A stretch of 36,907 nt of DNA from Clostridiales bacterium DTU036 (GTDB taxonomy: Bacteria; Bacillota; Clostridia; Peptostreptococcales; Acidaminobacteraceae). The position numbers and the translations under genes are program-made. The notes beneath the pieces are model-generated. The model was not told the DNA's origin. It did no database searches and worked only from the letters and a program-made list of their open reading frames with translations. Each line of letters begins with the position of its first letter. Position 1 is the first letter of the stretch. The DNA is taken from positions 1 to 36,907 of the forward strand of contig LFTD01000088.1 of the NCBI GenBank assembly GCA_001512625.1. The letters run 5' to 3'. Of the stretch, positions 15,844-20,634 are shown in pieces.

Positions 15844-16696
15844 GCCAGAAAACATGACTTCTCAGCAGGCTGTCAGCCACCTTAGGAGGATCCTAGGCCT
15901 TAAAAGAATAGGTCACTCTGGCACTCTGGACCCCATGGCTACAGGAGTTCTTAACTGTTTTGTTGGTAGGGCCACTCGATTTATTGATCTGCTTCCAGAG
16001 AGTGAAAAGATCTATAAAGCAGACTTCATTCTTGGTAAGAGTTCTGACACCCTGGATATATGGGGAAAGGTTGTGGACCATGAATTTGAAGCTGTGGAAG
16101 AGGAAGAGCTAAAGAGGGTGCTTGAGGGTTTCTTAGGTGAGAGTCTCCAACTTCCTCCCATGTATTCAGCCATAAAGTATAAGGGAAGAGCTCTTTATGA
16201 TTATGCTAGAGAGGGTCAGGAGATTGAGCGAAAGAAGCGAAGGATTCTTATTTCAAAACTTGAACTATTAAATTTTGATGGATTTGAGGGCAGCCTTATG
16301 ATTCACTGTAGTAGGGGGACCTATGTAAGGAGCCTTATTGATGATATTGGTTCTAGGCTTGGGACTGCTGGGCTTATGTCGGGTCTAGTTAGGCTGAGAA
16401 ATGACTGGGTTGACCTTGAGGACTGCTATAGTCTAGACCAAATTAGAGAGATGTATTCTAAAGGGGATATGAGTTTTCTTACCTGCCCAGCTACTAATGT
16501 TAGTTTGGCTAGGGCTGATATAGATAAGACAACCTACGAGGACTTGGCTCAAGGCAGGATAAATAGTTTTAGAAGTGAGTGCCAGCAGGGCAGGTACCTT
16601 ATCTACTGGGATAATAACTTTGTGGGCACAGCTCTTTGTGAGAAGGAAGGCTTTCTTGTAAGGGAAAGGATAATAAAGGTGGAAGATGATTCTTAG
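15818..16696 (+). CDS. truB: tRNA pseudouridine(55) synthase
   Basis: NLYKPENMTSQQAVSHLRRIL...RIGHSGTLDPMATGVL; PPMYSAIKYKGRALYDYAREG. Confidence 0.96.
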   Translation: MWGKINLYKPENMTSQQAVSHLRRILGLKRIGHSGTLDPMATGVLNCFVGRATRFIDLLPESEKIYKADFILGKSSDTLDIWGKVVDHEFEAVEEEELKRVLEGFLGESLQLPPMYSAIKYKGRALYDYAREGQEIERKKRRILISKLELLNFDGFEGSLMIHCSRGTYVRSLIDDIGSRLGTAGLMSGLVRLRNDWVDLEDCYSLDQIREMYSKGDMSFLTCPATNVSLARADIDKTTYEDLAQGRINSFRSECQQGRYLIYWDNNFVGTALCEKEGFLVRERIIKVEDDS

Positions 16697-17588
16697 CAGT
16701 GTAGAAGACTTACAGAAAAAAAAGGGGCCCTTTGCCCTAACCATGGGAAATTTTGATGGCCTTCATATAGGCCATAAGAGAATTATTTCTACTCTTATAG
16801 ATGAAGCTAGAAAGGATGGACTTACTAGCCTTGTAGTTACCTTTACCAACCATCCCAAGGAGCTAATCACAGGAGAAAAGGTAATACCAGTAATTAGCAG
16901 TGATGAAAAACTTGAAAGGCTTGAGGAAGAAGGGGTGGATTTGGTTTTAGGGCTGGAATTTACCCAAGAAATTAGGCAGATGAGCCAGAAAGAGTTTTTA
17001 GATTACCTGGGGGTAGAGTTTAAAAAGATTATTGTAGGTCATGATTTTAAGTTTGGCCATAATGGAAGTAAGTATAATAGCGATGAAATAGAAACTATTC
17101 CCGTTGAGGCCTTGGTAGTTGATGGAAAGATTGTAAGTTCAACTATTATAAGAGAATATATGAGTCAGGGGGAGATGGAAAAGCTTAGATTATTTCTGGG
17201 CAGGCCCTATCGCCATAGTGGCAAGGTAATCCATGGAAAGAAGGTGGGTAAGGCTTTAGGTTATCCCACTACCAATGTAACCATTAATGAGAGCGTCTAT
17301 GCCCTGAGAACTGGGGTCTATGTTACTAAGACCTACCTTGTTGACTCTGTTTTTAAGAGTGTAACCAACATAGGTAGGATTCCCACTTTTGATGGCAGGC
17401 CCTTTTCTGTTGAAACCCATATTTTGGATTTTGATAGGAGTATCTATGGTGAAGAAGTAAGAATAGAGTTTCTTCATTATCTAAGAAAAGAAGAGAAGTT
17501 TGATGATGTAGATGCCCTAAAGGCAAGGATTGCTGAGGATGTTGAGGCCACTAGGGACTACTTTAATAATCATCCAGAGGAGGTCTAA
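16686..17588 (+). CDS. ribF: Bifunctional riboflavin kinase/FAD synthetase
   Basis: ALTMGNFDGLHIGHKRII; VGHDFKFGHNGS; GRPYRHSGKVIHGKKVGKALGYPTTNV. Confidence 0.96.
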   Translation: MILSSVEDLQKKKGPFALTMGNFDGLHIGHKRIISTLIDEARKDGLTSLVVTFTNHPKELITGEKVIPVISSDEKLERLEEEGVDLVLGLEFTQEIRQMSQKEFLDYLGVEFKKIIVGHDFKFGHNGSKYNSDEIETIPVEALVVDGKIVSSTIIREYMSQGEMEKLRLFLGRPYRHSGKVIHGKKVGKALGYPTTNVTINESVYALRTGVYVTKTYLVDSVFKSVTNIGRIPTFDGRPFSVETHILDFDRSIYGEEVRIEFLHYLRKEEKFDDVDALKARIAEDVEATRDYFNNHPEEV

Positions 17589-17589
17589 A

Positions 17590-17832
17590 ATGAAGGTTAG
17601 GTTATTTTCTGCAGGTTACTGACCCCACTGTACTGGCGTGGAACGCCTTATAGTTGAAGAAAGACTTAATGTAGAAATCCTTGATATTTCTAAGGATAGG
17701 GGTCTGGTAAAGGAACTTTTACATATTGGAGATAAGAGGCAGATCCCCTGCCTTGATATAGATGGTAAGGCTCTTTATGAATCCAAGGCTATTATGGCCT
17801 GGCTTATGGACAATCTAGATCAATTAAAATAG
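17590..17832 (+). CDS. Glutaredoxin-like selenoprotein, TGA (17620-17622) decoded as Sec; 80 aa MKVRLFSAGYUPHCTGVERLIVEERLNVEILDISKDRGLVKELLHIGDKRQIPCLDIDGKALYESKAIMAWLMDNLDQLK
   Basis: AGGAGG SD at 17578-17583, 6 nt before ATG 17590; frame continuous with the called ORF 17638-17832 except one TGA; UxxC replaces the CxxC motif of the thioredoxin fold; cis-Pro motif QIPCLDIDGKALYESKAI; SECIS-like hairpin follows the TGA; selU is nearby. Confidence 0.88.
17627..17654 (+). promoter_or_regulatory. Candidate bacterial SECIS element
   Basis: Lower stem 17627-17632 (ACTGTA) pairs with 17649-17654 (TATAGT, one G-U); internal loop; upper stem GGCG (17635-17638)/CGCC (17644-17647); apical loop TGGAA. 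The loop begins 16 nt after the TGA. Confidence 0.72.
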
Positions 17833-17840
17833 CCTTTTTC

Positions 17841-17869
17841 TTTACAAACTTAAATGCTTATGGTATTAT
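17841..17869 (+). promoter_or_regulatory. Promoter for rpsO
   Basis: TTTACA (17841-17846) - 17 nt - TATTAT (17864-17869), TG at extended -10 position. Confidence 0.7.
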
Positions 17870-17870
17870 T

Positions 17871-17945
17871 GTTAACGGTACTTTAGCTTTGTATATGATT
17901 CTCCAACATCTACAGGGCTAAAGCGAATAATTTTAGGAGAAAATA
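17871..17945 (+). promoter_or_regulatory. rpsO 5' leader with inverted repeat (possible S15 autoregulatory leader)
   Basis: CTTTAGC (17881-17887) and GCTAAAG (17917-17923) pair in the leader between promoter and SD (TTAGGAG). Confidence 0.45.
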
Positions 17946-18209
17946 ATGACAAAAGAACAAAAGCAAGCAATTATTGAAGAGTACAGACTACATGATAATG
18001 ATGTGGGCTCTGCTGAAGTACAAGTAGCTATCCTTACCTTTAGGATTAATGAGCTTAATGAGCACCTCAAAGTTCATAAGAAGGACCACCACTCAAGAAG
18101 GGGTCTACTAAAGTTGGTTGGTAAGAGAAGGAATTTACTAGAATACGTTAAAAAACAAGATGTTGAGCGTTATAGAAGCTTAATCGAACGTCTTGGACTG
18201 CGTAAATAA
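17946..18209 (+). CDS. rpsO: 30S ribosomal protein S15
   Basis: [48 protein letters not shown]. Confidence 0.97.
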
Positions 18210-18264: not shown

Positions 18265-20634
18265 ATGAAAGAAAGAGTCTTTCGCAGGATGCTAGCAGGA
18301 CGTGAGCTTGAAGTTGTCGTCGGAAAATTTGCACCCCTTAGCGACGCCACCGTCTTTGTTAGTTATCAAGATACCCAGGTCATGGTTCACGTGACCAGCG
18401 CAGCTCCAAGAGAGGGAATTGATTTTTTCCCTTTAAGCTGTGAATTTCAAGAAAAACTATATGCTGTTGGAAGAATACCTGGTTCCTACATTAAAAGAGA
18501 AGCCAGACCCTCAGAAAAGGCTACCCTGGCTTCTAGGCTAATGGACAGGCCTATTAGACCCCTCTTTCCTGAGAGTTATAAGAATGACCTACAGATAATC
18601 GCTGAGGTTATGAGTATTGACCATGAATCAGGACCAGAAGTAGTGGCTATGATAGGAGCTTCAATTGCCCTAAGTTTAGCTGAAGATATCCCCTTTTTAG
18701 GACCTATTGGCGCCATGCAAATTGGCTATATAGATGGGGAGTTTATCCTTAACCCATCTGAACATGAACTTGCTGAGTCTGATCTTAGCTTGATAGTTGC
18801 TGGTACCAGGGAAGCTGTTCTTATGGTTGAAGCCCAGGCTAATGTAGTTTCAGAAGAAAAGGTTCTAGAAGCGATTCTACTTGCCCACGAAGAAATCAAG
18901 GGTATTGTAGATTTTATTGATGAAATAGTTGAAGAAACAGGAGTTGTTAAAAAGGAATATGTGGCTCCTGAAATTAATTATGTGAACAAGGCCTTTGTTG
19001 AGGCCCAGGTAAGCCAAGGACTCACTGATATCTTTGCTCAGAGCCTTGATAAAGAGGCTCGCCAGGAGGCAACTGACGCGCTGGCTGAAGAAATGCTTGC
19101 AGCATACGGCGAGGCCAATGAAGATCTTGAAGAGGCAAAGCCTGAGCTTATGGGCTTTTTCAAGGATGTTGAAAAAAGCGTTATGAGAAGGATGATTGTC
19201 AAGGAGAACCACAGGCCCGATGGTAGAAAGAGTCACGAAATCAGACAACTTACAACAGAAACCGGCCTTTTAAGAAGGACTCATGGTTCTGGTTACTTTG
19301 TTAGGGGTCAAACCTCAGCTCTAAGTGTTACAACCCTAGGTGCTCTAGGGGATGCCCAGCGTCTTGATGGGATAGAACTGGATGAGACTAAGAGATTTAT
19401 GCACCACTACAACTTTCCTAACTACTCAGTAGGGGAGACAGGACCAATTAGAGGACCAAATAGAAGGGCCATTGGCCACGGAGCACTGGGTGAAAAAGCC
19501 CTACTTGCAGTTATTCCTGAAGAAGACGACTTCCCCTATAGTATCAGGGTAGTTTCAGAGGTCCTATCTTCTAATGGATCCTCATCGCAAGCCTCTATCT
19601 GTGCAGCCACCATGTCTCTTTTAGATGCTGGTGTTCCTCTTAAAGCTCCAGTTGCTGGAATTGCTATGGGTCTTATTAAAGAAGATGAGGACATCGTAGT
19701 TCTAAGTGATATCCAGGGAGTAGAAGACTTCCTAGGAGATATGGACTTTAAAGTAGCTGGTACCAAGGATGGTATTACTGCTATGCAGATGGATATGAAA
19801 ATTGCTGGTATTGATAAAGAAGTCTTAGAGCAGGCTCTAGAGCAGGCTAGACAAGGTAGGCTTCATATCCTTAATGCTATGAATGAAGCCATCAGCGAAC
19901 CAGCAGAGCTATCTCCCTATGCGCCAAGAGTCTTTGTACTTTGGATTGATCCAGATAAAATTAGAGACGTTATTGGTTCAGGTGGAAAGACAATTAATCA
20001 GCTTACAGCAGATTATTCCTGCAAGATAGATATTGATGATGATGGTAGAATTGTAATTACAGCTGAAGATGGTCCCGGTGGCGAGGGGGCTAAAAAGGCT
20101 ATAGAAGAAATAACTAAAGAAGTTGAAGTTGGTGAAGTCTATAATGCCAAGATAGTGCGCATTGCTAAATTTGGAGCCTTTGTTGAGCTTACTCCCTACC
20201 ATGAAGCCCTTGTTCATGTTTCTGAACTAACTATTGAAAGACTTGAGAATGTTGAAGACAAGTTTAAAGAAGGAGAGATGATAGAGGTTAAAGTTATAGG
20301 TGTTGATGATGATGGCAAGATTGCAGCCTCTAGAAAGGCTTTACTCAAGGCTGAGGAGAACAAGGAACTGGCTGAGAAGATGAAAAATATTGCCATAGGC
20401 GATGTCTTCACTGCAAAAATCCTTAGGATCGCTAAATTTGGAGCCTTTGTTGAGTTAGTCAAGGGAGTAGATGCCCTCTGCCATATCTCAGAATTAACCC
20501 TTAAGCACTTAAAAAGAGTAGAGGATGAATTTAAGATTGGCGATGAAATTGTTGTCAAGGTAATTAGTATAGATGGGGACAAGATTGGAGTTTCAAGAAA
20601 AGCTCTTTTAGAAGAGGCTATCAGTGAAGCTTAA
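18265..20634 (+). CDS. pnp: Polyribonucleotide nucleotidyltransferase (two C-terminal S1 repeats)
   Basis: DTQVMVHVTSAAPREGIDFFPL; GRIPGSYIKREARPSEKATLASRLMDRPIRPLFP; KH and S1 domains; S1 repeats near 'AKIVRIAKFGAFVEL' and 'AKILRIAKFGAFVEL'. Confidence 0.97.
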   Translation: MKERVFRRMLAGRELEVVVGKFAPLSDATVFVSYQDTQVMVHVTSAAPREGIDFFPLSCEFQEKLYAVGRIPGSYIKREARPSEKATLASRLMDRPIRPLFPESYKNDLQIIAEVMSIDHESGPEVVAMIGASIALSLAEDIPFLGPIGAMQIGYIDGEFILNPSEHELAESDLSLIVAGTREAVLMVEAQANVVSEEKVLEAILLAHEEIKGIVDFIDEIVEETGVVKKEYVAPEINYVNKAFVEAQVSQGLTDIFAQSLDKEARQEATDALAEEMLAAYGEANEDLEEAKPELMGFFKDVEKSVMRRMIVKENHRPDGRKSHEIRQLTTETGLLRRTHGSGYFVRGQTSALSVTTLGALGDAQRLDGIELDETKRFMHHYNFPNYSVGETGPIRGPNRRAIGHGALGEKALLAVIPEEDDFPYSIRVVSEVLSSNGSSSQASICAATMSLLDAGVPLKAPVAGIAMGLIKEDEDIVVLSDIQGVEDFLGDMDFKVAGTKDGITAMQMDMKIAGIDKEVLEQALEQARQGRLHILNAMNEAISEPAELSPYAPRVFVLWIDPDKIRDVIGSGGKTINQLTADYSCKIDIDDDGRIVITAEDGPGGEGAKKAIEEITKEVEVGEVYNAKIVRIAKFGAFVELTPYHEALVHVSELTIERLENVEDKFKEGEMIEVKVIGVDDDGKIAASRKALLKAEENKELAEKMKNIAIGDVFTAKILRIAKFGAFVELVKGVDALCHISELTLKHLKRVEDEFKIGDEIVVKVISIDGDKIGVSRKALLEEAISEA

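Follow-up and report, generated by a model that had tools for sequence, protein, structure and literature searches.

A glutaredoxin-like gene with an in-frame TGA codon in Clostridiales bacterium DTU036: evidence for a small selenoprotein

In the window (the whole 36,907 nt stretch of Clostridiales bacterium DTU036 DNA that was analysed), a plus-strand reading frame just downstream of ribF meets a TGA at its 11th codon, and the question raised by this locus is whether the codon marks the end of a damaged or misread gene or is translated and, if so, as which amino acid. It is highly probable that the locus encodes a full-length, 80-residue glutaredoxin-like selenoprotein, in which SelB, guided by a stem-loop, would insert selenocysteine (Sec) at the UGA for oxidoreductase chemistry of the UxxC type.

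The interrupted frame and its neighbours

The gene occupies positions 17590..17832 of the plus strand, from the start codon ATG at 17590 to the stop codon TAG at 17830-17832, and its translation with TGA as U is MKVRLFSAGYUPHCTGVERLIVEERLNVEILDISKDRGLVKELLHIGDKRQIPCLDIDGKALYESKAIMAWLMDNLDQLK. The TGA at codon 11 (17620..17622, plus strand) is the sole interruption of the 80-residue frame and, together with the TGT at codon 14 (17629..17631, plus strand), would give a U-P-H-C motif with Sec11 in the first position and Cys14 as the resolving cysteine. A Shine–Dalgarno sequence, AGGAGG, is located at 17578..17583 of the plus strand with a 6 nt spacer to the ATG, exactly where the earlier note had placed it. 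It lies within the final codons of ribF (16686..17588, plus strand; TIGR00083, 240 bits), a gene that ends in GTC TAA, and the ribF stop codon (17586-17588) finishes 1 nt 5′ of the ATG. Downstream, rpsO, encoding S15 (17946..18209, plus strand; TIGR00952, 139 bits), is followed by pnp (18265..20634, plus strand; TIGR03591, 992 bits).

A mechanical ORF list contains only a 64-residue ORF from GTG 17638, a codon that has no Shine–Dalgarno sequence upstream and sits inside the predicted hairpin described below. Translation confirmed that the frame from ATG 17590 runs through the TGA into this ORF, as had been proposed. The further proposal that the gene is missed by ORF calling holds for the mechanical list; beyond that list, misannotation is deduced from the list itself and from the NCBIfam search, in which no model reached its cut-off for the window protein, so that automatic annotation probably drops the gene or cuts it to 64 residues. 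When the window was scanned for frames of at least 60 codons with exactly one TGA and a redox- or Sec-like motif, the gene at 17590-17832 was the one plausible case, the other matches being three minus-strand frames, each opposite real genes.

The interval before rpsO contains a block (17840-17945; GGTACTTTAGC...TCTCC.AC...GGGCT.AAGCGAATAA) that is present also in a second species of the genus (G001, introduced below) and in part in a third genome of the genus (G002). The block, for which an Rfam search gave no match, is possibly an S15 leader or a promoter region.

Fold and cysteine-containing relatives

The window protein matches the Pfam family Glutaredoxin (PF00462) at 36.9 bits, against a cut-off of 22.9, and GST_N_3 at 35.2 bits, against a cut-off of 22; GST_N (28.7 bits) and GST_N_2 (27.4 bits) are likewise over their cut-offs. 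Among the NCBIfam models, TIGR02181 (glutaredoxin 3; 23.5 bits versus 90) and TIGR02196 (YruB-type; 27.2 bits versus 88.55) fall below theirs. The AlphaFold model obtained from a 14-sequence alignment (pLDDT 95.3, pTM 0.84) shows the order of elements typical of the thioredoxin fold. In a Foldseek search it matches the N-domains of GST and of SspA/MglA as well as glutaredoxins (TMq up to 0.85), the glutaredoxins and GST N-domains ranking with the best hits in the PDB. A thioredoxin/glutaredoxin fold is predicted with confidence from this model, and the characteristic features of a glutaredoxin are found on it: U-x-x-C lies at the start of helix 1, and the QIPCL segment (residues 51-55; 17740..17754, plus strand) contains the invariant Pro53, the cis conformation of which is presumed. 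The fold and the cis-Pro segment suggested previously from the sequence are in agreement with the Pfam assignment and the model. By its sequence, the protein belongs to a standalone glutaredoxin subfamily that is GrxB/GST_N-like.

A single-sequence scan of genome contigs for relatives found nothing, and an alignment-based scan succeeded: in 84,980 species genomes scanned with the alignment, 125 relatives with the hallmark GGKRQ-V-PCLFIDG-x-x-LYES were found, 80 of which were kept. The screen covered 104 loci; in 100 the motif begins with Cys, mostly as CPYC or CPFC, and the four exceptions are one unreadable fragment and three TGA records, two of which are copies of the G001 gene and the third the window gene. 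Two SPYC motifs in this screen were traced to an overlapping-match artefact (SPYCPYC), both being CPYC. The TGA of the window gene stands opposite the first Cys of the C-P-[YFW]-C motif of the Cys-type relatives, the position that the earlier note had assigned to it; in the 14-sequence alignment this column is Cys in all 12 Cys members, and Pro12, Cys14, Pro53, Cys54, Leu55 and Tyr63-Glu64-Ser65 are invariant. An order-wide survey of 395 genomes found the subfamily in ten, with the window gene and that of G001 as the only Sec forms, and a phylum-wide survey of 399 genomes found no further Sec form. The two Sec sequences cluster in the tree (96/90), in which their neighbours are not resolved. 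Among the sequences examined, Sec in this GrxB/GST_N-like 'PCL...YES' subfamily appears only in this genus, as judged from two Sec-type sequences, both of which come from draft genomes.

Two Cys-type glutaredoxin genes from another genus of the same family (genomes G021 and G032; L017:1501-1710 and L018:927-1136) are preceded by ribF and a MarR-like gene, and in G032 rpsO-pnp is next downstream. In both, a SECIS-like hairpin follows the Cys codon at the spacing seen in the Sec genes (GGUCG-UGAC-CGACU and GAUCG-UGAC-CGAUU, with one compensatory pair); it could be the vestige of an earlier Sec codon or have arisen by chance. The reshuffling null is about 1.7% for each gene, the two genes not being independent and the test having followed sight of the hairpin, and the tree, weakly (66/84), does not group these Cys genes with the Sec pair.

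Decoding of the TGA codon

All four of the sel genes for which the earlier note had proposed a search were found in the host assembly (G000), a draft of 1.41 Mb with a completeness of 86.6%. The contig C122 carries tRNA-Sec (C122:22689-22781; 77 bits, gathering threshold 47), selB (338 bits, cut-off 242) and, adjacent to selB, selA (504 bits, cut-off 268), which selD adjoins. The host selD (L026:9720-10640, minus strand) itself needs an in-frame TGA: its mechanical ORF starts at TTG, and reading the TGA as Sec lengthens the frame upstream via LTQYAKAAG-U-AAKLAPGSL. The same Sec codon (the TGA in YAKAAGUAAK) is found in selD of G001 and G021, and the hairpins after the TGA covary (CUGGUA-GUU-UAUCAG in the host and CCGAUA-GGU-UAUCGG in G021, paired by eye), with changes from U-A to C-G and from G-U to A-U. 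The host selD, which would be called truncated from TTG, is in its own right a selenoprotein gene with a hairpin that covaries among G000, G001 and G021. No component of the Sec pathway seems to be missing in this lineage, and the pathway appears to be used.

The frame would also be open if the TGA were read as some other amino acid, by a Trp-type code or by general readthrough. However, TGA terminates seven of the 34 main plus-strand ORFs of the window and is hence a normal stop, so that this is not a genome in which TGA encodes Trp, a point on which the earlier analysis was right; the codon aligns with the catalytic Cys and not with a Trp, and selABCD are present. Decoding as another amino acid is extremely improbable.

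The homolog of G001 (Tissierellia bacterium isolate AS09scLD_251, JAAYGQ010000155.1), another species of the genus, lies in the gene order ribF-grx-rpsO-pnp, matching the window. Among 61 genomes, it is the one interrupted by a single stop, again a TGA and at the corresponding codon, and the two states anticipated for homologs at position 11, Cys and TGA, are thus represented by the relatives and by this same-genus gene, respectively. In G002, neither ribF nor a glutaredoxin gene was found in the assembly, the rpsO contig of which starts 125 nt upstream of rpsO. A sequencing or assembly error that turned TGT or TGC into TGA might be suspected in a draft of 130 contigs; since the same TGA occurs in the separate assembly of G001, an error of this kind, which had been named beforehand as a possible refutation, is so unlikely that it can practically be disregarded.

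The two proteins share 46 of 79 residues (58%) when the TGAs are counted as a match. After the TGA, the nucleotide mismatches between the two genes number 21, 12 and 45 at codon positions 1, 2 and 3 (70 of each), a bias that is the signature of a frame translated 3′ of the TGA, as judged from this pair of sequences; by NG86, dN is 0.31 and dS is saturated. Before the TGA, the corresponding mismatches are 4, 1 and 3 of 9 each, the nine codons being too few to be read alone, and these codons align without gaps to strand 1 of the relatives. The mechanical ORF finder, by giving only the 64-residue ORF, would fit a pseudogene, in which a nonsense mutation struck a CPHC glutaredoxin and left either a relic or an N-terminally truncated 64-residue protein from GTG 17638. 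Yet a species 42% divergent in the protein has TGA at the identical codon and no other lesion, and the differences 3′ of the TGA retain their codon-position bias; moreover, the GTG is without a Shine–Dalgarno sequence, its product would be missing both strand 1 and the active site, and the machinery for Sec is complete in this genome. A pseudogene is very improbable.

A putative bSECIS stem-loop, GGCGU-GGA-ACGCC (17635..17647, plus strand), has its loop 17 nt after the TGA. In G001 the stem-loop AAGGCGU-GGA-ACGUCUU lies at the same distance, and the geometry of both genes conforms to the bSECIS model (PMC13188914). The MFE of the 48 nt starting at the UGA is −11.5 kcal/mol for the window and −8.5 kcal/mol for G001 (−6.2 for a shorter, 37 nt piece of G001). 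Between the two genes, conserved residues have an identical codon in five of six cases over the hairpin versus 16 of 37 elsewhere, a suggestive difference in small numbers. Because about 5% of synonymous-codon reshuffles of each gene yield a similar hairpin, the SECIS on its own is modest, supporting evidence and is not decisive; an Rfam search matched no SECIS family. Sec insertion at the UGA is supported by the sequence and by comparison with relatives, and the claim that this is a real small selenoprotein is upheld by selABCD, the TGA conserved in G001 and the bSECIS-like hairpin.

Proposed chemistry and comparison with known glutaredoxins

Translation would start at ATG 17590, probably on one message with ribF, and Sec would be inserted at the UGA by SelB and Sec-tRNA-Sec, with the stem-loop immediately 3′ of that codon as the guide. 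In thioredoxin and glutaredoxin chemistry, the nucleophile at the first position of the motif attacks and the second Cys resolves. By analogy, the Sec11 selenolate would attack a disulfide or a similar oxidized group on a partner, the resulting mixed selenenylsulfide would be resolved by Cys14, and re-reduction of the Sec-Cys bond would follow; a UxxC thiol-disulfide oxidoreductase is the most likely function. Glutathione is doubtful as the reductant because no match over the cut-off was found for a GshF-type synthetase model in G000-G002, which are incomplete genomes, and a donor of the thioredoxin-reductase type or another thiol seems more likely; independence of GSH is only a speculative suggestion. 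The chances are about even that the gene represents a separate Cys-to-Sec conversion in the standalone 'PCL...YES' subfamily, one that is restricted to a single uncultured genus of Tissierellia, has not been recorded before among the selenoprotein families and operates where glutathione may not be made.

Sec-containing glutaredoxins with UxxC have been described from Clostridia, Geobacter sulfurreducens, Moorella thermoacetica, Alkaliphilus metalliredigenes and the Sargasso Sea (PMC1794560, PMC1088965, PMC13188914); the kind is already established, and the window gene adds a member to it. These proteins resemble the window protein, by description rather than by sequence, in PF00462/COG0695 membership, UxxC, widespread Cys homologs and a bSECIS after the UGA. 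When the family profile was compared with PDB sequences, the top match was 7c10 (E 2e-9), glutaredoxin-1 of Clostridium (Alkaliphilus) oremlandii, a native selenoprotein crystallized with Sec replaced by Cys and thus with the motif CPHC (PMC7642778). This protein (7c10/7c12/7c13), for which a Sec-type MsrA has been proposed as the partner (PMC7642778), is likewise a small single domain with U-P-H-C, a native first-position Sec and an anaerobic Clostridia-type host, whereas only about 56 positions align and it does not have the GGKRQ-x-PCL...YES hallmark. The UXX-star families (NF041114, NF041211, NF047338 and NF041212) are also small glutaredoxin-like (seleno)proteins, but the window protein scores 14.7, 21.6 and 17.3 bits with NF041114, NF047338 and NF041212 (cut-offs 72, 97 and 66) and, with a best score of 21.6 bits versus 97, is outside them by the curated threshold.

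The locus is a clean example of a real gene that looks broken only because of Sec recoding, and our understanding of Sec decoding and of glutaredoxins is unchanged by it. The new element may be Sec in the GrxB/GST_N-like standalone branch, seen only in this genus among the sequences examined; Sec use would thereby extend to a branch with Cys in every other readable sequence examined. To the GrxB/GST N-terminal domain (Escherichia coli Grx2 and the SspA/MglA N-domain) the protein is linked by its GST_N_3 match, PCL...YES and the structural similarity given above, but it has 80 residues, lacks the C-terminal all-helical domain and would have Sec for the catalytic Cys. The Cys-type standalone glutaredoxins of Halanaerobium, Collinsella, Lachnospiraceae, Chlamydiota and Omnitrophota agree with it in length, in about 40-45% of residues and in the C-P-[YF]-C and GGKRQVPCLFIDGxxLYES hallmarks and differ in having TGT or TGC where the window gene has TGA, and the locus offers a close comparison of Sec and Cys forms together with a compact bSECIS.
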